The notes beneath the pieces are model-generated. The model worked only from the letters and a program-made list of their open reading frames with translations. It had not been told where the DNA came from and did not search any database. Positions 4,241-63,789 of a stretch of 64,000 bases of DNA are shown in pieces. The position numbers were made by a program, and so were the translations under genes. The stretch's first letter is position 1. Each line of letters begins with the position of its first letter. The stretch comes from Verrucomicrobiia bacterium (GTDB lineage: Bacteria > Verrucomicrobiota > Verrucomicrobiia > Verrucomicrobiales > DEV007): NCBI GenBank assembly GCA_020439995.1, contig JAGROY010000122.1, positions 1-64,000 on the forward strand, written 5' to 3'.

Positions 4241-4519
4241 ATGGATATGGATGTGCGCAGAGCGGCCGAACTGGCCCGTATCGAACTGACTGCCGACGAA
4301 GCCGAACGCTTCGGCGGGCAGCTTGGCAAGATTTTGGAATACATCGACAAATTGAACTCGCTGGATGTCAGTGGGGTCGATGCGATGGCGCACGCCAATG
4401 CAGTGTATGACGTGACGCGACCTGACGAAAGCCGCCCAGGCTTCGGCTTGGAGAAGGCGCTGCGCAATGCCCCGCGCAAGACTGCCGATCAATTTATCGT
4501 AACCAAAGTAGTCGAATAA
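4241..4519 (+). CDS. gatC: Asp/Glu-tRNA amidotransferase subunit C
   Basis: A 92-residue protein. GatC is the small scaffold subunit of the GatCAB amidotransferase, which converts Asp-tRNA(Asn) and Glu-tRNA(Gln) to the amidated forms. Family marks are the N-terminal [12 protein letters not shown], the [16 protein letters not shown] helix, and the C-terminal [19 protein letters not shown], corresponding to the conserved LxNAPxxxxxxFxVPkV tail with Pro replaced by Thr. It lies 8 bp upstream of gatA on the same strand. The start is ATG at 4241, with a second in-frame ATG two codons later. No gatB is visible in the window. Confidence 0.92.
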
Positions 4520-4527
4520 CAACAGGA

Positions 4528-5979
4528 ATGGAACTTCATCAACTTTCGATTACCGAGCTTCTGGATCGCTACCGAAGCGGAGCCGCCAGCCCGCGTGAAG
4601 CTGTGGAAAGCGTCCTCACTGCGATCAGCAACGGCGACGGCACCATTGGAGCCTATCTTTCCCATGGCGCCGAAGCAGCTCTCGCGGCTGCGGAAAACGC
4701 TGACACGTCTCTACCACTGGGCGGCATTCCCATTGCCATCAAAGATGCCATCAACGTCGAAGGGCAGACCACCACCTGCGCATCGAAGTTCCTCGAAAAT
4801 TTCAACAGCCCTTACGATGCCACGGTCATCGCGAAGCTGAAGGCAGCGGGAGCAATCCCACTCGGAAAGACAAACATGGATGAATTCGCTATGGGCTCGT
4901 CCACCGAGAACTCTGCCTTGGGAAAAACAACCAATCCGTGGGACACTTCGCGCATCCCGGGTGGCTCCAGCGGCGGCTCGGCTGCTGCGGTTGCCGCAGA
5001 TCTTGCGATCGCCGCGCTTGGCTCTGACACAGGAGGCTCGATCAGGCAGCCGGCTTCACACTGTGGCTGCGTAGGACTGAAGCCGACGTACGGTCGCGTG
5101 TCCCGCTTTGGTCTCGTGGCATTCGCATCGTCCCTGGATCAGATCGGCCCGATGACGAAGACTGCGGAAGATGCTGCACGCGTGTTGCAAGTGATCGCGG
5201 GTGGCGACATCAATGACAGCACGTGCCTGGACGAGCCAGTGCCGGATTATCTCGGTGCGCTGAATCAAGGAGTCAGAGGGCTCCGCGTCGGATTGCCGAA
5301 GGAATATTTTATCGATGGCATTGAGCCGGGGGTGAAGGCGGCGGTGGAAGCAGCAGTGAAGGAACTCGAGTCCCAGGGGGCCGAAATCGTCGAGGTTTCC
5401 CTGCCCCATACTGAATACGCGGTGGCCACTTACTACATTATCGCAACGGCGGAAGCATCGGCAAACCTTGCCCGGTTCGACGGCGTTCGCTATGGTCACC
5501 GCTCAGCGATTCAACCCGAGAGTATCGTCGAGCACTACAAGAACACGCGCGCCGAGGGCTTCGGTGAAGAGGTAAAGCGACGCGTCATTCTTGGCACCTA
5601 TGTGCTCAGCTCGGGCTACTACGATGCCTACTATCTCCGTGCGCAGAAAGTACGCACGCTGATCCGTCAGGACTTCACCAAAGCGTTCGAAAACGTGGAC
5701 GTTATCGCTTCTCCAGTCGCCCCTGCGCCGGCATTCAAGATCGGAGAAAATGCAGATGATCCTCTCAAAGTTTACCTCGAAGACATCTTCACGATCGCGG
5801 CAAATCTGGCAGGCATCTGTGGAATCAGCGTGCCCTGTGGATTTAGCGATTGCAAGGGATCTCGGCTTCCCGTTGGCCTGCAATTGCTCGGCAAGCCTCT
5901 GGGCGAGTCCGATATTCTCCGCGCAGCACATGCCTATCAGCAGACTACCGACTGGCACAAAGCTCGTCCGTTCGAATAA
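4528..5979 (+). CDS. gatA: Asp/Glu-tRNA amidotransferase subunit A
   Basis: A 483-residue amidase-signature protein of normal GatA length. It releases ammonia from glutamine for the transamidation carried out with GatB. The Ser-cisSer-Lys triad is complete: Lys72 in IAIKDAIN, cis-Ser147 in [14 protein letters not shown], and nucleophile Ser171 in [12 protein letters not shown]. The same spacing is known from characterised GatA proteins. The C-terminal segment [19 protein letters not shown] is also typical. It sits directly downstream of gatC and forms a two-gene operon with it; gatB must be elsewhere. Its 3' end is 5 bp from the convergent MFS gene. Confidence 0.95.
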
Positions 5980-32349: not shown

Positions 32350-35241
32350 ATGGAAGTAGAAAAATCCCCCCTGCATCGGAACCCCGCCCATGAGAGCAGG
32401 TCTAGAGAACTCTGTGGAACGTCACTTAGCCCACTGGCGCTTGCAGTCATTTCGTCAGCCCTGCTCGCTGGGCTAGCCCCGGTGGCAACTGCGGCTGAAG
32501 AACTCATTCCGCTGAACTCGGAATGGCAATACTACGACTCTCCTATGCCCCCGGCGGATCAGTGGATGAGTGCCGGCTTTGCTGCAAAGGCTGCCGATGG
32601 CTGGAAAACAGGGAACGCTCCATTTGCTGTGGATCTTCCGGATACGGCCACTCCGATTGCCAGCGACGGCGATGTTACTCCTACGACTTATTTCCGAACC
32701 GAATTTGACTTCGCGGATCCAGAAGCGTTGTCCAAGGCGGTCTGCTATGTTCGCGTGAACGATGGACTGGTCCTTTACTTGGACGGAGTTCTACTGGGCG
32801 CGTCTGGCGTGGAGCGCCCCAACGCCAATGACCCTGGAAACGTGGGGCATAATCCTGGCAGCTCATTCAGCCGGATGGAATTCCCGATTCCTGCCGGACT
32901 ACCTGCCGGTCGTCACACACTTGCCGCAGTCGTCTTTCAGAATCCTCAAGACCCGCAACGGATGGTCTTCGATCTCTCGCTGGTCAGCCTTGCCAGGGGA
33001 GCACTAACGGAAGTGCTGATCGAACCGCGCAAGGGCGATTGGAAGTATTTTGACAGAACCGAACTCCCAGCTTCGAATTGGAACTCACTCGAATTCAATG
33101 CCAGCAGTTGGAAGTCTGGCCCCGGTGTACTTGGTTATGGTGATCCTGACATTGCCACTACTCTCGATTTTGGCACTGATTCAGAGTCCCGCCCGATGAC
33201 CGCCTGGTTTCGCCGGGAATTCGAACTCACCGGGAAAGGTCGCACACCGGTGTGGATCGGTATCCAGTTCCTGCGCGACGACGGCGCGGTCATCTACATC
33301 AATGGAATCGAAATGGTTCGACAAAACATGCCGGACGGCCCCATCGATCCTTCAACCCCGGCGGTCGATACCCAGAATAACCATGACGAGATGGTTTACC
33401 ATTTTTTCCCAATCGACGGAAGCTACCTGCGTCCTGGCCGCAACGTCATTGCTGCAGAAGTGCATCAAGTGAAGCCGGACAGCACCGATTTGCGATTCGA
33501 TCTGGGTCTCGACGTCACCTTTGAACCCAAAGCATGGAAATGGAACTCTGCAGCCGTAGTCCAGCCGCCAAAGCAGATCAATCGTCACACCACTGAGCAA
33601 GCGACTAGCACAAACACCACAGATCCACCGAATCAACGATCAGCCAATGTCGTCAATGCAGGCGACAGCGCAGCGATTCAATCGGCAACACCCGCAGACT
33701 GGAAGGCAACGACCATTGCCATGCGCAGTTCTTCGGAAAAAGTTTATGAGGCAGGTGATCTGGATCAGGCCGCGAGGCGTTACGCTGCGAGCCGATGGGC
33801 GACAGAATTCGCGGGCGACGCCCGGGTTCTTGATCCCGCACTGAAGCAGTATCTGCTCAGCACTGATGCCACCACACTGTCTCTGGAGTATTTCGACCTT
33901 TTGAGTCCCCGGGACAATACCAGAAAAGTTTACACCATCCTCAATGACATCTTTACTGCTTCGCCAGTGGCCTTCAAAGCGTACGCGGGCCTCGCCTTCG
34001 CCATCAGCATTGTTTATGATCAGGCCCCTCCCGCGAACTGGCCCCACCATCAGGTTTCACAGTCCCTGCTGCCAAGGAAGCTTCCTGATCCTATTGAAGC
34101 ATTCCAATTCTGGAGCTCGACGGACCAGCGCGGCAAAACCCTGCATCCGCTCGACAAGCTCCAGCTGGAAGAACTCAAATACGTCGTTGATTCCCCGGTG
34201 TCGATTGCTGAGCTCCGCGCAGCACTGGGAGAGCACGCTCGCCTCAGTGGCATGGATGATCTTTATTCTGGAATCCGGTATGACACCCAGAGATTTGAAA
34301 CCGGCGTGTACGATTGGCCGCACACCAGCTACGATCTGGACACCATCAAAAAACTCGGTGGGATCTGTGTCGACCAGGCATACTTCACCACCACCGTGGC
34401 GAAAGCGCATGGCGTTCCGTCGATGCTGGTAAGCGGCGCTGGCCAGGAGGGTAACCACGCCTGGGTCGGATTCCTGAACAAGAAAAACTGGGACTTCAAT
34501 ACCGGTCGCTACCCGGAATCCAAGTTCGTCACCGGCACCATGTTTGATCCGCAAACCTGGGAGCAACCGACCGATCACGAAATCGCCTTTTTGAGCGAGC
34601 GCTTCAGAGGAACCCCCAAGTATCGGCAGTCGCGAGTGCACGGCCGATTTGCCCGGGAATTCTTCACCGATGGAGATGTGGCGGCAGCAGAAAAAGCTGC
34701 ACGCGCGGCAATCGACACGGAATCCCGCAATCTTGACGCCTGGACCATCCTGATGGACTGCCTGGCTGCGAGAAAGGCCCCGCGCTCCGAACGCGAAGCT
34801 GCGCTAGCCGACGCCGCCAAAGCATTCGGACGTTATGCAGATACCGAGTCCTACTTCCTCGAACAACTTGCCGCAAGCTACGCCGAGCAGGGAAAGACAA
34901 AGGAAGCTGAAAAACTGCGCGCCGGGATCATCCGCCGCAACAGAGAAGCCCGACCGGATCTGGCACTCGCTCAGGCGAAAGCTGAACTCGACAAGAAGAT
35001 CGAAACCGAGCCCGTGCAGGCACAGGTAGCGCACTACAAAAGCGTCATCAACCGCCTCGATGATGCCGGCCTCATCGCATTCTATTCCCTCACAGAACCA
35101 TTCCTGGCACACTTGGGACGCAAAGGCGAAACGGACGCCGCCCGCGACGTCCTCAAGTATACCAAAAGGCGTCTCAAATCATCCGGCGAAGGCCAGCTTG
35201 GCGAAGCATTGGATGGCTGGGACAAGCGGCTGCCAGATTGA
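32350..35241 (+). CDS. Exported transglutaminase-like protein with N-terminal jelly-roll modules
   Basis: About 964 residues from ATG 32350, which follows a purine-rich AGAAGAGAAGAGG; ATG 32326 or TTG 32299 are alternatives. A signal peptide is present (LALAVISSALLAGLAPVATAA). Two N-terminal beta-sandwich modules carry WQYYDS/WKYFDR and the pattern DDGAVIYINGIEM...EVHQ, shared with the giant at 49519. A transglutaminase-like core has all three residues: Cys673 (GGICVDQAYF), His703 (GNHAWVGF) and Asp715 (WDFNTGRY). TPR-like helices follow. Such cores may act as proteases or cross-linkers on surface proteins; no reaction can be assigned. It lies downstream of the DUF1501 gene. Confidence 0.75.
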   Translation: MEVEKSPLHRNPAHESRSRELCGTSLSPLALAVISSALLAGLAPVATAAEELIPLNSEWQYYDSPMPPADQWMSAGFAAKAADGWKTGNAPFAVDLPDTATPIASDGDVTPTTYFRTEFDFADPEALSKAVCYVRVNDGLVLYLDGVLLGASGVERPNANDPGNVGHNPGSSFSRMEFPIPAGLPAGRHTLAAVVFQNPQDPQRMVFDLSLVSLARGALTEVLIEPRKGDWKYFDRTELPASNWNSLEFNASSWKSGPGVLGYGDPDIATTLDFGTDSESRPMTAWFRREFELTGKGRTPVWIGIQFLRDDGAVIYINGIEMVRQNMPDGPIDPSTPAVDTQNNHDEMVYHFFPIDGSYLRPGRNVIAAEVHQVKPDSTDLRFDLGLDVTFEPKAWKWNSAAVVQPPKQINRHTTEQATSTNTTDPPNQRSANVVNAGDSAAIQSATPADWKATTIAMRSSSEKVYEAGDLDQAARRYAASRWATEFAGDARVLDPALKQYLLSTDATTLSLEYFDLLSPRDNTRKVYTILNDIFTASPVAFKAYAGLAFAISIVYDQAPPANWPHHQVSQSLLPRKLPDPIEAFQFWSSTDQRGKTLHPLDKLQLEELKYVVDSPVSIAELRAALGEHARLSGMDDLYSGIRYDTQRFETGVYDWPHTSYDLDTIKKLGGICVDQAYFTTTVAKAHGVPSMLVSGAGQEGNHAWVGFLNKKNWDFNTGRYPESKFVTGTMFDPQTWEQPTDHEIAFLSERFRGTPKYRQSRVHGRFAREFFTDGDVAAAEKAARAAIDTESRNLDAWTILMDCLAARKAPRSEREAALADAAKAFGRYADTESYFLEQLAASYAEQGKTKEAEKLRAGIIRRNREARPDLALAQAKAELDKKIETEPVQAQVAHYKSVINRLDDAGLIAFYSLTEPFLAHLGRKGETDAARDVLKYTKRRLKSSGEGQLGEALDGWDKRLPD

Positions 35242-58433: not shown

Positions 58434-59717
58434 TTGTCATTCGTTCTCTTTCGTTCAAAAGTCGGGTTTGTGAAGGCTCCACAATCCCGCCAGAAACCGC
58501 TCAAGAAATTCGCTCATAACGTGGCGATCCTGAAGGACACGAACCCGACGTATCCATACCGGGTTCACTTCACGGCTGAGGGCAAGCGGCAGAGGAAATA
58601 CTTCCGGCTCAAGAAGGAGGCGGAAGCATTCGCAGCCGAGAAAGCGGAAGAGCTGGATTTGATCGGTAGTCAGTCAGCGGCCCACAGTTTGTCTGAGGCT
58701 GAGTTGGGAGCGCTACGGGAGGAACTTCCCTACATCCGGGAGTCTGGCTTCACGCTGAGGAACGCTCTCGAGCACTTCCGGAGACACATTCAATTGACCA
58801 GCTCAAGCAAGACGGTGGAAGCGGCCGCTGCTGACTTCCTTCTGGAAAAGGAGCTGAGCCCGAAAGTGAACGAGCTGGCGTTGCGAGACTATCGAGCCCG
58901 CATCGGCAGGTTCTCGAAAGCTTTCGAATCTCAGAGCGTTGCGCTGGTCACTACCGACCAGGTCAGGGAATGGCTCTACTCGCTCAGGGTTTCCTCTGTG
59001 ACGCTCGACAACTACCGACGGGCCCTTTCAACGTTCTTCATCTGGGCTGAGGCGAAAGGTTGGTGCGAGGGCAACCCGGCCCACAAGCGAAGCGTCGATC
59101 TGCCCGAAATCGACGATGCAGAGATCGGCATTCTCGAACCTTCCGAGTTCGCTGCACTGATGGCGGCGGCACCCCCTCCCCTCGTGCCTTACATCGCCAT
59201 GGCTACGCTGGCCGGCATTCGGGTAGACGGGGAACTGCAGCGACTGGAATGGAAGGCCGTGAACCTCAGAACAGGCGTCATTCACATTTCCGCCAGCGTG
59301 GCCAAGCGAACGAAGAAGGGCGGCCGAAAGCGGCAAATCCCGATATCGGAGAACCTCAGGGAATGGCTGCTCACGTGCAAACCACGGACGGGCAAGGTTG
59401 CGCCTCCTAACAGTCGGCGACTGATGGACGCGGCGAGGGTGAGGGCTGGCTTCAAGCCGTCTCACTTCTCCACGGATCCCGAGACAAGGAAGATCGAGGA
59501 ATCGCTCAAGGACTGGCCACGCAACGCCATGAGGCATTCATTCGCTTCATACCGGATGGCTGAGACGATGCACGAGGGAATTGTTGCCGAAGAGATGGGC
59601 AATTCACCATCGATCGTCCAGCGCCACTACAAGGCACTTGTCACACGGGAAGATGCCGAGGAATTCTGGAACATCGGCCCCGAGGCAATCGAGAACATCG
59701 TCACAATGACAGCATAG
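58434..59717 (+). CDS. Tyrosine recombinase / integrase of the tRNA-targeting element
   Basis: Up to 427 residues. The start is uncertain: TTG 58434 opens the frame and GTG 58470 is a good alternative, with no early ATG. The N-terminal arm-binding region is basic (VHFTAEGKRQRKYFRLKKEAEA). The core-binding domain lies around residues 125-215 (TTDQVREWLYSLRVSSVTLDNYRRALSTFF). Catalytic residues are Arg263 (AGIRVDGELQRLEW), a Lys/Arg-rich beta-hairpin (AKRTKKGGRKRQIPI), Arg367 in NAMRHSF, where the usual His of HxLRH is Asn364, and nucleophile Tyr399 in QRHYKAL. It adjoins the tRNA fragment, so it is probably the enzyme that integrated the element. Confidence 0.88.
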   Translation: MSFVLFRSKVGFVKAPQSRQKPLKKFAHNVAILKDTNPTYPYRVHFTAEGKRQRKYFRLKKEAEAFAAEKAEELDLIGSQSAAHSLSEAELGALREELPYIRESGFTLRNALEHFRRHIQLTSSSKTVEAAAADFLLEKELSPKVNELALRDYRARIGRFSKAFESQSVALVTTDQVREWLYSLRVSSVTLDNYRRALSTFFIWAEAKGWCEGNPAHKRSVDLPEIDDAEIGILEPSEFAALMAAAPPPLVPYIAMATLAGIRVDGELQRLEWKAVNLRTGVIHISASVAKRTKKGGRKRQIPISENLREWLLTCKPRTGKVAPPNSRRLMDAARVRAGFKPSHFSTDPETRKIEESLKDWPRNAMRHSFASYRMAETMHEGIVAEEMGNSPSIVQRHYKALVTREDAEEFWNIGPEAIENIVTMTA

Positions 59718-59786: not shown

Positions 59787-60401
59787 ATGAGTGAATCAGA
59801 GACTCCGAACCCAAGCAAGGACGAACAACTCCAAATCTCCTTAGAATTACTGAATATGGAGGAAGAGACAATCGATCCGTCGGAGCACGACCTTGCTTCG
59901 ATTCGAGCGATCGAGGCGATCGAGGCCCCCCAAATCGCGTCTCTTGCCGCGCAAATCAGGCTTGCTGACGACGACTCAGGATGCACCCCGAAGGAGACCG
60001 GTGAACGGGACGAAGCCGCAGTGACTCGGGCGACCGATCTTCTCTTGCGCCTGGTTCGAATATCCGAAAAGGAGAGACTGATGCGGGCAGAAGAATTGGG
60101 GTCTCTTGAGAAAACCATTCGTTTAAAAAAAACACCGCTCAACAAAGTGCTCGAAAAATATTGGCCGAAGCGGAGTGCTGAAGTCCGCAAGGCGAATCTT
60201 AAGCAGCTGCTCAGCAAGGCATACGGTGACGATATTCTGATTGATCTCTATTACCGTAGATGGTGTGCCGGGGTCGATCCCCTTGACTGCGAGGAGATTG
60301 CCAAATTGTATGGCAAGCATTGGAAGCACTCAACGAAGGGAAAGCGAAAGGGAAAGGAGATCGACCAGCACAAGCAATCAAAAAAAGTTGAAGTTTTTTA
60401 A
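59787..60401 (+). CDS. Hypothetical element-encoded protein
   Basis: 204 residues, predicted soluble. The first half is acidic (EEETIDPSEHDLASIRAIEAIEA). The middle is helical, with KKTPLNKVLEKYWPKRSAEVRKANLKQLL. The C-terminal third is basic (KHWKHSTKGKRKGKEIDQHKQSKK), which suggests nucleic-acid contact. No family recognised. It lies between the integrase and two excisionase-like genes on the same strand. Its TAA stop is part of the first of four TAACTGAGG repeats. A role in element control is possible but unproven. Confidence 0.65.
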   Translation: MSESETPNPSKDEQLQISLELLNMEEETIDPSEHDLASIRAIEAIEAPQIASLAAQIRLADDDSGCTPKETGERDEAAVTRATDLLLRLVRISEKERLMRAEELGSLEKTIRLKKTPLNKVLEKYWPKRSAEVRKANLKQLLSKAYGDDILIDLYYRRWCAGVDPLDCEEIAKLYGKHWKHSTKGKRKGKEIDQHKQSKKVEVF

Positions 60402-60513
60402 CTGAGGGAGATCTCTGCTGAGTTGATGATAACTGAGGAGAGAGAACTATTGAGGCTCCAAGATGACAATTTAACTGAGGGCGGACGCGGGGATCTACGG
60501 CAATAACTGAGGG
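60399..60513. repeat. Four TAACTGAGG direct repeats, helically phased
   Basis: TAACTGAGG starts at 60399, 60430, 60472 and 60504, all on the plus strand. Three copies read TAACTGAGGG and the second ends in A. Spacings of 31, 42 and 32 bp are close to three, four and three turns of B-DNA, so bound proteins would lie on one face. It occupies the non-coding region upstream of two excisionase-like genes. Likely integrase arm-type sites, excisionase sites or a regulatory array. Confidence 0.6.
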
Positions 60514-60604
60514 AGGCGAAATATTGGTCAATTTGGGCCGATTACCACATTAACTACAGGTGTGCTATCGGTGTGCTAACACGTGAAAACGAACTCGAAC
60601 GCAC
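60402..60604. promoter_or_regulatory. Control region upstream of excisionase-like genes
   Basis: A 203-bp non-coding stretch holding most of the TAACTGAGG array. It also has a second direct repeat, GGTGTGCTA at 60559-60567 and 60570-60578 (11-bp period), just 27 bp before the first HTH gene. No Shine-Dalgarno sequence precedes that ATG. The arrangement looks like an autoregulated promoter of the HTH genes. Confidence 0.45.
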
Positions 60605-60796
60605 ATGGAAGCAAATCAAAAATTCTTGTCCAAGTCTGAGATTGCAAAGCGTCTCAGCGTTTCTCTGAGAACGATCGATAAATGGCGAGACCAGCACGGA
60701 ATGCCAGCGATCCAAATCGGCACCGTTATTCGGTTTGATCGAGAATCGGTAGACCGTTGGTTTAACTCTTTCGCCCGCCAGGAGATTGCCCAATGA
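60605..60796 (+). CDS. Excisionase-like helix-turn-helix protein (HTH_17 / MerR-like)
   Basis: A 63-residue winged-helix protein of the excisionase/AlpA type: FLSKSEIAKRLSVSLRTIDKWRDQHGMP forms the HTH and QIGTVIRFDRESVDRWF the wing and following helix. Such small proteins direct the integrase toward excision or regulate transcription of satellites and prophages. Its TGA overlaps the start of a second HTH gene (ATGA at 60793-60796). It probably binds the repeats immediately upstream. Confidence 0.8.
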   Translation: MEANQKFLSKSEIAKRLSVSLRTIDKWRDQHGMPAIQIGTVIRFDRESVDRWFNSFARQEIAQ

Positions 60797-61059
60797 GCAA
60801 CCTAAACACTCTCATCCGGGCCTTGGCTGCCTTCGTGCCATCTGGAGATTCAACCCCGCTGCTAACCCGGAAGGACTTGGCAGCACGGCTCCAAATCACC
60901 GAGAAATCCGTTGAGAACTGGGAAAAGTCCTACGGCTTACCAGTGCTTAAAATGGGGGGATCCGGCCAGGTTGTGCGCTACCACTGGCCCACAGTGAAAG
61001 CCTGGATCGATACCGAGACCGAGAGACACCTCAAGGCAGAGACTGGAACCCCGGCATAA
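60793..61059 (+). CDS. Second excisionase-like helix-turn-helix protein
   Basis: An 88-residue protein, translationally coupled to the preceding HTH gene. The HTH is LLTRKDLAARLQITEKSVENWEK and the wing is LPVLKMGGSGQVVRYHWPTVKAWI. It is longer than its neighbour by an N-terminal segment (TLIRALAAFVPSGDST). A nearly identical 129-bp piece of this gene (60818-60946) recurs in inverted orientation at 63520-63648. Two different excisionase-like proteins in tandem may act as a heteromeric regulator or as separate Xis and transcription control factors. Confidence 0.8.
   Translation: MSNLNTLIRALAAFVPSGDSTPLLTRKDLAARLQITEKSVENWEKSYGLPVLKMGGSGQVVRYHWPTVKAWIDTETERHLKAETGTPA
60818..60946 (+). repeat. 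129-bp inverted repeat, left copy (inside HTH gene)
   Basis: It matches the reverse complement of 63520-63648 with a single visible mismatch (GGCTCC versus GGTTCC). The pair brackets 2.57 kb containing the initiator-like gene, iterons and helicase. The left copy is the intact coding version. Confidence 0.85.
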
Positions 61060-61147: not shown

Positions 61148-61297
61148 ATGACTTTACGAAAGCAACTCAAGCCCCGCTATGTGCTACTTTCGCACCGGTG
61201 GCCCTGGAGCCTAATTCTTGATCGGAGTACCGGGCGTATCACCAGGCTTCGTGATGCCGCTGCACTCAGAACTCTAACCGAGGGCTGGCTCCAATGA
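61148..61297 (+). CDS. Small basic protein upstream of initiator gene
   Basis: A 49-residue open frame with start ATG 61148 and TGA 61295-61297 that overlaps the next ATG as ATGA, the same coupling used by its neighbours. The product is basic and hydrophobic (TLRKQLKPRYVLLSHRWPWS). No family is recognised. The overlap geometry is the main support. It could be a leader peptide that couples translation of the initiator-like gene. Confidence 0.5.
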   Translation: MTLRKQLKPRYVLLSHRWPWSLILDRSTGRITRLRDAAALRTLTEGWLQ

Positions 61298-62106
61298 GGA
61301 CGGCAAAGATTCCAGAGTCCGCTTTCGAGCTTGGCCTCAGTCCGCACGCGCTAGCGCTCTACGCTGTGCTGCTGCTCCATCGAAACAGCGCGACCGGCAC
61401 CGCTTGGCCGGACAGGGAAACGCAACTCCGCATGTCAGGCACGAGCGTGAACAAACTCACGAAGTGGCTCGACGAATTGAAGACGCACCGACTAATCGAG
61501 CGCACTCGGAAGCGTGCCACGAACGTGAACGAATACCATGTGTATCTGCCCGATGACAGGCCAGAACCAGAATCACACATCTGTGACTCTGACCAGAATC
61601 ACACATCTGTGATTCTGCCACCAGAACCAGAATCACACAACTGTGATGACCAGAATCACACATCTGTGAGTAACGGTATTAAGGATAACCAACGATATGA
61701 ACCAACGATAGTCGGCGGTGATTTTTTCGAGCCCGAAATCGAGGAAAAGAAGGCGAAGAAATCGCGCTCAAAACCTGCCGTGGAAGACTACAAGATCCTC
61801 CTCGCCGAATGCGTCCGCCGGAAGCTGACAACGGAGTGGAGCACCAAGGAAATTTCAAAACTGAAGGAGCTCGCCAAGCGCCAGGACTTCGCGGCCGAGC
61901 TGGACACGATCCACGCCAGCTACACGAAATACCCCGCAAGTCCGCCAGCCAACGTTGAAGGCGATTATCGGCGGCATGGGTTGGAAACACTGCTCAACAA
62001 TTGGCCGGGCGAGGTCGATAAGTGTGTGAGCGGACGGCTCTACAAGTTCGCAATCACAAAAGCCAAGAGCAATCCTCAACTGGAGGGCGTCGAAATCGTA
62101 AAATGA
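61294..62106 (+). CDS. HTH replication initiator-like protein (lambda O / P22 gp18 analogue) with internal iterons
   Basis: A 270-residue protein. The N-terminal winged HTH (LSPHALALYAVLLLHRNSATGTAWPDRETQLRMS, then KLTKWLDELKTHRLIERTRK) matches the HTH_36-type domain of phage replication proteins. The middle is a low-complexity linker (PEPESHICDSDQNHTS repeated) whose DNA forms four iterons. The C-terminal part is helical and basic. Directly downstream, and coupled by ATGA, is a DnaB-type helicase, as in P22 (gp18-gp12). The layout argues for an origin-binding initiator that recruits the helicase. Sequence similarity to a named initiator was not tested. Confidence 0.7.
   Translation: MRTAKIPESAFELGLSPHALALYAVLLLHRNSATGTAWPDRETQLRMSGTSVNKLTKWLDELKTHRLIERTRKRATNVNEYHVYLPDDRPEPESHICDSDQNHTSVILPPEPESHNCDDQNHTSVSNGIKDNQRYEPTIVGGDFFEPEIEEKKAKKSRSKPAVEDYKILLAECVRRKLTTEWSTKEISKLKELAKRQDFAAELDTIHASYTKYPASPPANVEGDYRRHGLETLLNNWPGEVDKCVSGRLYKFAITKAKSNPQLEGVEIVK
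61566..61669 (+). other. Candidate replication origin: four iterons inside initiator gene
   Basis: Four direct 21-bp units at 61566, 61592, 61626 and 61649 each contain the palindrome TCACACATCTGTGA; the third has one change (TCACACAACTGTGA). Spacings are 26, 34 and 23 bp. An AT-richer tract follows to about 61730, the place where duplex opening occurs in lambda, whose origin also consists of four dyad iterons within the O gene. The encoded linker is low-complexity, consistent with DNA-level selection. Confidence 0.65.
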
Positions 62107-63374
62107 ACACGTTCGCGCCTCTCCCATCGGCCACCAATTCCGAAGCTGCCGCTATCAGTTGCGCTCTCCAGTGCGCAACCATGCGGGCGAGGGCTATCAG
62201 GGAACTGCCCATCGATCTTTTCCACCTGCCTGCACATCGGATAATCTGGGGGATCGTTCGCGAACTGGGAGACGCTGCCGACGTGGTGACGATCCAGCAA
62301 CGCCTTATCGCCCGGGATCAGCTCAGCGACGTCGGAGGCCCTGGCGTGATCGTTGACCTCAACCTTGCTGCACCAAGCGCGGGTCACTACGCCTACTACG
62401 TCGCGCAAATCATCGATGCTCATCAACGCCGGATGGCCATTGCTGGCGCAGAAAGGATCATAGAGGCCGCGCAAGACCCCGATGGTGACTTTGTGCAGGA
62501 GGCAGCGTCCGCACTGTCAGAGATAGCCTCTCAGCGCAAAGGGGTCGATACGGCAAAGGACGTTCGAGCGCTCGCAACGGAGTATCTGGATGATTTCGAA
62601 GCCAGGATGGAGGGACGCCACAACTATGGCTTACGCACTCGGTTCGCCAGACTCAATGCAATCACTGGCGGAATGCCGAATGGCAACCTCATCGTGATCG
62701 CAGGTTCCCGTGGAACCGGAAAATCAATTCTGGCCCAGAATTTGGGTGAAGATGCCATGAGCACGGGCAAGTCGGTGCTCTGGTTTTCCTACGAAATGCC
62801 ACGGCGGGAAATTATGAGCAGGCTGATCGCCTCGCAAGGCAATGTTCCTGGAAGGGTTCTCTTCGATCCGCATAACAACCGACCGACACAGGAGCATTTC
62901 CAAGCAATGACAGGCGTAATCACATCAATGCAAAATGCGGACTTGCTCAGATTGCGAGACCAGCACCTCACTGTGGATGAGATTCGGCTGGAAACTCTGG
63001 ACGCGATGAGCCGGGGCAACATAAGACTCATTCTTGTGGATTATCTGCAGCTTGTCCCGCCTACCGACCCGCGAGCGAGTCGTGAACAGCAGGTGTCCAC
63101 TGTCAGTCGAAAGCTCCGTGCTCTCGCGCTTGAAACGGATCTGCCAGTGATCGCACTGAGCCAGTTGAACCGCGAGGGAGATGCACGGGAGAGCATGGCA
63201 ATCGAACAGGATGCCAGCGTAATTCTTAAATTGATTTACCCCGATGAAGAAGCCCGGAAGGCTGGCGATGCGCTGTTGAAAATCGATAAGAACCGCAACG
63301 GACAATCGCACGTTGCTATCGCTCTTACTCACGAGCGCGGATTCTTCAGGTTCACTGAGAAAGGCCCCCCATAA
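62103..63374 (+). CDS. DnaB-like replicative helicase of the mobile element
   Basis: About 423 residues from ATG 62103, which overlaps the initiator stop (ATGA); a longer frame from 62022 is not needed. The N-terminal DnaB domain (SEAAAISCALQ...LFHLPAHRIIW) is followed by a RecA-type helicase domain: Walker A GSRGTGKS (201-208), SVLWFSYEMPRREIMSRL, Walker B RLILVDYLQLV (Asp313) and ALSQLNREGD. It unwinds DNA at the fork as a hexamer. A self-encoded DnaB relieves the element of a helicase loader, as in P22. It is the last clearly identified gene before the right edge. Confidence 0.9.
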   Translation: MNTFAPLPSATNSEAAAISCALQCATMRARAIRELPIDLFHLPAHRIIWGIVRELGDAADVVTIQQRLIARDQLSDVGGPGVIVDLNLAAPSAGHYAYYVAQIIDAHQRRMAIAGAERIIEAAQDPDGDFVQEAASALSEIASQRKGVDTAKDVRALATEYLDDFEARMEGRHNYGLRTRFARLNAITGGMPNGNLIVIAGSRGTGKSILAQNLGEDAMSTGKSVLWFSYEMPRREIMSRLIASQGNVPGRVLFDPHNNRPTQEHFQAMTGVITSMQNADLLRLRDQHLTVDEIRLETLDAMSRGNIRLILVDYLQLVPPTDPRASREQQVSTVSRKLRALALETDLPVIALSQLNREGDARESMAIEQDASVILKLIYPDEEARKAGDALLKIDKNRNGQSHVAIALTHERGFFRFTEKGPP

Positions 63375-63789
63375 GGAATCTTTTATCGAAACGTCCGGAC
63401 CAGAACGAGCGCAGCGCTCACCGGACTCGCACGTTTGTGTCGAAATTATTCGGGTGGGTGCCCGATGTCCATGTTGCAAATCTGAACCTACCAAACCAAT
63501 GAAAGGCCTGCCTTCTCTCGCACTGGTAAGCCGTAGGACTTTTCCCAGTTCTCAACGGATTTCTCGGTGATTTGGAACCGTGCTGCCAAGTCCTTCCGGG
63601 TTAGCAGCGGGGTTGAATCTCCAGATGGCACGAAGGCAGCCAAGGCCCAGCGGGCCTTTTCTGTGTTCGCTTTGGCTGCCTCTGAAGCCACCCGAAAGAG
63701 CGTTATCGCTACAATTCCGTGGCATGGATGAAAAGTCTTGATCACCCAGTTTCCGACTGCTAAACCAGCGCATGTTGTTCGCTGAAGAA
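63375..63789. other. Non-coding segment with rearranged duplicate
   Basis: A 415-bp region after the helicase without a convincing complete gene. It contains the inverted copy of the HTH gene fragment (63520-63648) and, fused to it, a 14-bp copy of the post-integrase hairpin arm (63647-63660). A minus-strand frame (63488-63886) runs through the fragment but has no recognisable N-terminal part. Confidence 0.55.
63520..63648 (-). pseudogene. Truncated inverted copy of the second HTH (excisionase-like) gene
   Basis: On the minus strand it encodes LAAFVPSGDSTPLLTRKDLA, one substitution (Leu to Phe) at ARFQITEKSVENWEK, then YGLPV, after which similarity stops and unrelated residues follow. The wing and C terminus are absent. 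It is the right arm of the 129-bp inverted repeat. The upstream junction is GGGCC microhomology with the AAAAGGCCCGCTGG element, suggesting illegitimate recombination. Confidence 0.75.

Follow-up and report, generated by a model that had tools for sequence, protein, structure and literature searches.

The iterated repeats in the middle of a replication initiator gene probably serve a small integrative element as its origin of replication, carried inside the element's own initiator gene. Based on the sequence and its comparison with relatives, we give this reading a probability of about 0.83. It would provide a concrete, testable origin for a Verrucomicrobiales mobile element, and it suggests that origins can be recognised in the linker DNA of phage initiators that lack annotation. 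The finding is solid and holds little surprise for a specialist; a C-rich motif shared by initiators across phyla, described below, is the more open point. Throughout, the window is the whole 64,000-nucleotide stretch that was analysed, and a host of the Verrucomicrobiales is supported; an earlier sequence-only reading of this DNA had proposed a Verrucomicrobium host.

The integrative element

The visible part of the element and the features of its initiator gene are as follows.

58434..59717, + strand: tyrosine integrase, left end of the element (PF00589, E 1.9e-7; phrog_1 integrase, E 4.2e-36)
59787..60401, + strand: 204-aa ORF without a Pfam, PHROG or NCBIfam match
60605..60796, + strand: excisionase-type HTH protein, 63 aa (NCBIfam TIGR01764, above cut-off; PF12728)
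60793..61059, + strand: second small HTH protein, 88 aa (weak PHROG matches to excisionase/DNA-binding proteins)
61148..61297, + strand: possible 49-aa ORF (translation; a stop overlapping the initiator ATG is the sole support)
61294..62106, + strand: replication initiator gene, 270 aa (HTH_36; phrog_186/270/428; precedes DnaB)
61315..61542, + strand: N-terminal winged helix, residues 8-83, putative iteron-binding domain (AlphaFold2 model; VIA match to RepA_N)
61566..61586, + strand: iteron 1, ACCAGAATCACACATCTGTGA
61592..61612, + strand: iteron 2, including part of a 24-bp palindrome at 61594-61617
61626..61646, + strand: iteron 3, one change
61649..61669, + strand: iteron 4, repeat match
61670..61730, + strand: AT-richer stretch, candidate unwinding region (GC 0.417 against 0.541 for the gene; repeats)
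61780..62067, + strand: helical C-terminal domain, residues 163-258, putative helicase-docking module (conserved in relatives; model)
62103..63374, + strand: DnaB-family replicative helicase of the element, 423 aa (PF03796, PF00772; phrog_19, E 3e-79)

The genes scanned upstream of the integrase are chromosomal in kind (sulfatase, FG-GAP and TPR proteins). On the other side the contig ends at 64094, before the element's right end is reached. No tRNA that could serve as attachment site was found in the window, and a search for direct repeats on either side of the visible part gave nothing convincing, the best match being 14 nt long and inverted. The element is present in a single copy in the genome. 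The element's helicase has the N- and C-terminal domains of DnaB (PF00772, E 5.9e-9; PF03796, E 2.2e-47) and shares 29% identity with P22 gp12 and likewise 29% with the genome's other DnaB, which is encoded on C356 and presumed to be that of the host.

Two further repeat families were seen in the element. A 129-bp piece of the second HTH gene (60818-60946) recurs inverted and 99% identical at 63520-63648, beyond the initiator-DnaB module, and may be an invertible segment, a duplication or an assembly artefact. Four AACTGAGG repeats at 60400-60515 separate the 204-aa ORF from the excisionase gene and are possibly integrase arm or excisionase sites.

Iterons within the initiator gene

The sequence ACCAGAATCACACAtCTGTGA occurs four times in the window, with copies beginning at 61566, 61592, 61626 and 61649 (start-to-start distances of 26, 34 and 23) and the block spanning 61566-61669. 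Copies 1, 2 and 4 of this 21-bp iteron are identical, and copy 3, TCACACAACTGTGA, differs by one change. Each of the four repeats had been read as carrying a dyad; the four copies stand, whereas the exact dyad TCACACATCTGTGA is present in three of them, copy 3 being changed. Iteron 2 enlarges to a 24-bp palindrome, symmetric at 22 of its 24 positions. When up to three mismatches were allowed, the 19-mer core of the iteron gave six matches in the 64 kb (four forward and two from the palindrome) against 0.00 expected, and zero matches elsewhere in the 8.83-Mb assembly. The initiator gene contains 87 repeated 12-mer pairs, compared with a maximum of six in 200 dinucleotide shuffles.

The iterons occupy codons 91-126 of the 270-codon ORF, with frame offsets of 1, 0, 1 and 0 that yield the peptides PESHICDS, QNHTSVIL, PESHNCDD and QNHTSVSN. 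Since the copies are read in two frames and into unlike peptides, the repetition is kept as DNA and not as peptide. Element-specific repeats that lie within the initiator coding region and are kept as DNA are a class feature of initiator-embedded origins, and they are found here.

GC content falls to 0.417 in the 60 nt 3' of iteron 4, compared with a gene mean of 0.541. Values are down to 0.40-0.42 across and past iteron 4, and the 60-nt windows with starts at 61630-61650 belong to the lowest 1% of the window in GC. The direct repeat AACCAACGATA occurs at 61687 and 61700, inside the AT-richer stretch. A stem-loop 3' of the iterons was weak and not better than shuffles. The location of the repeats in the coding region of an HTH protein, the AT-richer DNA after them and a coupled DnaB gene had all been noted from the letters, and all were borne out: the ORF is 61294-62106, with HTH_36 at residues 14-68, and the ATG of the DnaB gene at 62103 gives a 4-nt overlap with the initiator stop.

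The initiator protein

PF13730 (HTH_36) only just reaches its gathering cut-off in the initiator (25.1 bits against 25). The protein matches phrog_186, phrog_270 and phrog_428, which are replication initiation or DnaD-like loader families, at E 4e-10 to 8e-6, and there is one weak O-like PHROG match (E 0.0065). An AlphaFold2 model (mean pLDDT 71.6, pTM 0.42) has a winged helix (pLDDT by block 57-91), a low-confidence linker at about residues 89-160 and a confident helical C-domain, which reached a pLDDT of 86.5 when modelled alone.

By predicted fold, the N-domain seems nearest to the RepA_N initiators. The top VIA matches were 4pt7_B (Z 8.6, rmsd 2.7, 83 aligned) and 4pql (Z 8.4), followed by the further RepA_N entries 4ro3 (Z 7.8) and 5kbj (Z 7.5); a Z of 8 is near the noise level of which the tool warns, and unrelated winged helices fall within 1 Z of the top RepA_N matches. 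Foldseek found nothing significant for this domain in the PDB (E above 0.1) and 20 viral models at E<=0.001, of which the named ones are mostly HTH proteins, a replisome organiser among them. The RepA_N Pfam profile gave no initiator match at E<=0.1, and the whole initiator had no match among PDB sequences.

The C-domain has no family name in the databases compared. It is without a Pfam family, its profile gave weak Myb and chance matches to PDB sequences (best E 0.047), and structure searches with its model stayed at Foldseek E values of 3.5 or more and VIA Z values of 3.6 or less, from which novelty of the fold does not follow.

Together these parts suggest how the origin might work. Dimers of the N-terminal winged helix would bind the four dyad iterons, and the resulting complex would open the AT-richer stretch directly 3' of them. 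The flexible linker, which would be the origin read as protein, joins the winged helix to the C-domain; this domain would load the element's DnaB, which is made from the adjoining, overlapping gene, onto the strand thus opened. The element would then replicate autonomously after excision.

Repeats in relatives of the initiator

Relatives were gathered by querying IMG/VR, GTDB contigs and whole genomes with the full-length initiator or its C-domain. Once nearly identical copies, partial ORFs and those shorter than 200 aa had been dropped, 35 distinct initiators remained, the window's included. In the phylum search a relative was found in 6 of 387 genomes, again with the window's own included, so the initiator is rare in the phylum. 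The window's N-domain matches 2 of 386 genomes besides its own, both weakly, and by itself found no viral relative in the viral scan. No close relatives by protein were found at E<=0.01 in phage and plasmid collections, and the C-domain of a viral relative gave no match to phage records. N-domains vary among the relatives: the Pfam cut-off was reached in none of the 10 scanned, with one sub-threshold DUF1376 match.

Repeated 12-mers in excess of dinucleotide shuffles (p<=1/100) are present in 26 of the 35 C-domain relatives, window included, and in 21 of 123 controls, these being other ORFs of at least 600 nt from the same loci. At the stricter 0/100 level the counts are 24/35 and 18/123 (Fisher 2e-9). 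Nine of the 35 fail the test at p<=1/100, and six fail even at 5/100. The repeats sit chiefly in the linker, and their sequence is unlike between elements. In the viral pair L090/L091, the two genes are unrelated through their first half, repeats included, and about 97% identical from a hexamer tract on. N-domain and repeats were thus exchanged as a unit, which indicates, for this one pair, that the repeats travel with the N-domain. The check suggested with the earlier reading, whether related elements keep iterons at the DNA level, came out mostly in its favour: repeats are enriched, differ in sequence and are swapped in this pair; against it, nine relatives do not pass our repeat test.

In L047 the linker contains GGAACCACATGGTTCC four times. 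This initiator, at 4341-5321 of a contig whose title names Lentisphaerae, has the clearest repeat array among those collected: its linker holds four GGAACCACATGGTTC(C/T) near-palindromes together with GGTTAACC repeats. Tandem hexamers (GGTAAA, GGAATA, CGTAAT, GGAGAC, GCAGAA) that lie 3' of the iterons and are read as dipeptide-repeat linkers were seen in L031, L037, L047, L058, L028 and L090; it is speculation on our part that such a tract is a loading signal resembling the DnaA-trio.

Among 29 ORFs downstream of initiators (Pfam, window included), 17 are DnaB and five match an IstB-type ATPase profile. The relatives would combine the trick of placing the origin in the initiator with many different DNA-binding domains.

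A C-rich motif in related initiators

In many of the relatives the linker ends in C5-N4-C5-AA-G5. The 35 initiators were not chosen for this motif, and 14 of them have a loose form and 11 a strict form of it, compared with none of the 123 control ORFs; the window initiator has neither. In IMG/VR the pattern CCCCCNNANCCCCCAARGGGG was found in at least 120 stretches, against 12 for a control with the spacer bases swapped. Among the matches listed, 120 of 120 lie in a same-strand ORF, and in eight an opposite-strand ORF is longer.

The matches listed (viral loci L095-L214) include 88 distinct ORFs that are complete and at least 180 aa long, and the counts that follow apply to these. PHROG matches are mostly to replication initiation or primosomal families (39 phrog_270, 37 phrog_9474, 36 phrog_9327). 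The motif stands in codon phases 0, 1 and 2 in 9, 59 and 20 ORFs, respectively, and its use of three phases speaks for a constraint at the DNA level; all three yield similar proline-rich peptides, and a role in the protein may exist as well. The 240-nt flanks are repeat-rich upstream of the motif in 57 of the 88 and downstream in one, and hexamer tracts lie upstream in 18 cases and downstream in one. The motif is also present in L044, L047 and L026.

In P22 (NC_002371, L233) the motif, at 32963-32984, closes the annotated rep_origin (32840-32984) on its 3' side. When five genes were set side by side, it was found in P22 only; its absence from lambda O, F10 gp52, TP-84 gp57 and the window indicates that it is common but not required. 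In folding, the C5-G5 motif did not surpass shuffled sequences of equal composition (z -0.94). A literature search found no description of it, and older papers on the P22 and lambda origins may contain one.

These data allow a broader proposal, which we put forward tentatively and at somewhat less than even odds. Phage origins embedded in initiators may share one DNA plan across bacterial phyla, laid over unrelated initiators: dyad iterons specific to each element, then AT-richer or hexamer-repeat DNA, and then a C5-N4-C5-A2/3-G4/5 stem-loop that occurs in each of the three codon phases. The origins would have this stem-loop in common as a functional part, and its 5' border would be the point at which origin-binding and host-specific helicase-docking modules are swapped; the window would be a variant that lost the stem-loop or never had it. 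If the plan holds, the stem-loop could, for example, form a hairpin in single-stranded DNA and so hold the bubble open or prime synthesis of the first strand. If functional, the C-rich motif could serve as an easy sequence marker by which to recognise phage origins in metagenomes, and its role at the P22 origin would be the direct question to ask.

Alternative explanations

The reading of the iteron region as an embedded origin is favored because the iterons exceed chance expectation by far and occur nowhere else in the genome, because they use two reading frames, as lambda iterons use mixed frames, and because the modelled protein consists of a winged helix, a low-confidence linker and a confident C-domain. 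The downstream DnaB and IstB-type genes (17 and 5 of 29), the repeats in 26/35 relatives against 21/123 controls and the L090/L091 module swap add to this. Several observations count against it: close N-domain relatives with the same iteron were not found, 9/35 relatives fail the repeat test and 21/123 controls pass it, the GC drop is modest, the module swap was seen in one pair, and the element's right end is missing. We consider it improbable that the dyads are operators through which the HTH protein autoregulates its operon or acts as a repressor without a role in replication. Operators too are typically dyad repeats bound by winged helices, and the fold matches of the N-domain are rich in MarR-type regulators; the dyads nevertheless lie mid-gene rather than at the gene start and are followed by a DnaB gene, the PHROG families of the protein are replication initiators, its viral structural neighbours include several named replisome organisers or initiators, and the repeats of the relatives occupy the same place in the gene.

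Marginally less probable still is an origin of the repeats by slippage or duplication in a linker of low constraint, with no role as DNA. Low model confidence in the linker, as in disordered stretches, and the apparently slippage-prone dipeptide-repeat linkers of relatives would agree with this, whereas the window iterons stand in two frames and at unequal distances, each has a dyad, and the spacers between them are unrelated; the repeat richness around the C5 motif (57/88 upstream, 1/88 downstream, among the matches listed) depends on position in a way that slippage by itself does not produce. A more serious contender, unlikely as we judge it, is an origin that was once functional in a now decaying element and no longer fires. 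It overlaps with the embedded-origin reading, whose claim is about the function that the sequence is designed to serve. The contig end that cuts off the element at 64094, the inverted 129-bp HTH gene piece at 63520-63648 and the single copy in the genome fit decay; against it, none of the integrase, excisionase, initiator and helicase ORFs is interrupted, and the last two of these overlap neatly.

Comparison with known systems

The lambda origin consists of iterons inside gene O that bind O dimers, followed by 40 bp of AT-rich DNA (PMC5043065, PMC7466680), and lambda replication relies on the loader P and host DnaB (PMC5043065). Lambda, P22 and L are described as having distantly related initiators, each with different iterons within the gene, and L and P22 as having a DnaB-type gp12 (PMC8022706). 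Like these phages, the window element carries iterons in the middle of its initiator gene with AT-richer DNA 3' of them, and the initiator gene overlaps the next replication gene by 4 nt. The iterons stand in mixed frames as in lambda (0, 2, 2, 1 in lambda; 1, 0, 1, 0 here), while their sequence differs and the GC drop is modest (0.42, compared with 0.32 in lambda). Unlike lambda, and like P22 and L, the element encodes its own DnaB-type helicase; unlike P22, it is without the C5-G5 motif. The lambda/P22-like anatomy first read from this DNA, with dyad iterons in an initiator gene, AT-richer DNA after them and a coupled DnaB as in P22, was upheld. So was the view that the initiator is something other than lambda O: the profile PF04492 (Phage_rep_O) finds lambda O (E 5.7e-36) and P22 gp18 (E 6.7e-38) and gave no match in the window initiator at E<=0.1, and comparison of this protein with lambda O detected no relationship in sequence (E 0.61). 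The putative origin in the window joins an already-known kind, with protein parts different from those of lambda and P22.

Plasmid initiators offer further parallels. The rep gene of pSK41 has four Rep boxes in its centre, so that the linker is encoded by ori, and the Rep C-domain binds DnaG; pPR9 Rep joins a pfam13730 N-domain to a pSK41-type C-domain, and its mini-replicon replicates autonomously (PMC5703833). The window likewise has repeats inside the initiator gene and a linker encoded by the putative origin, and its N-domain has its best VIA matches, at a Z near the noise level, among RepA_N proteins (pSK41/pTZ2162 Rep, PLE RepA). It differs in having no RepA_N Pfam match and, where the pSK41 C-domain binds DnaG, an unnamed C-domain that adjoins an element-encoded DnaB. 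RepA of the V. cholerae PLE is a RepA_N initiator of a chromosomal satellite (PMC7145576), and the window initiator similarly belongs to a chromosomally integrated element. Its PF13730 N-domain is shared with pPR9 Rep and with gp57 of Geobacillus phage TP-84, in which initiator, loader and DnaB follow in this order and the repeat signal of the gp57 gene is weak (reached by 5/200 shuffles); the C-domains of these two proteins are unlike that of the window, being pSK41-type in pPR9 and Phg_2220_C in gp57. On the predicted models, the RepA_N and HTH_36 plasmid initiators are nearer structural parallels to the window initiator than lambda O.
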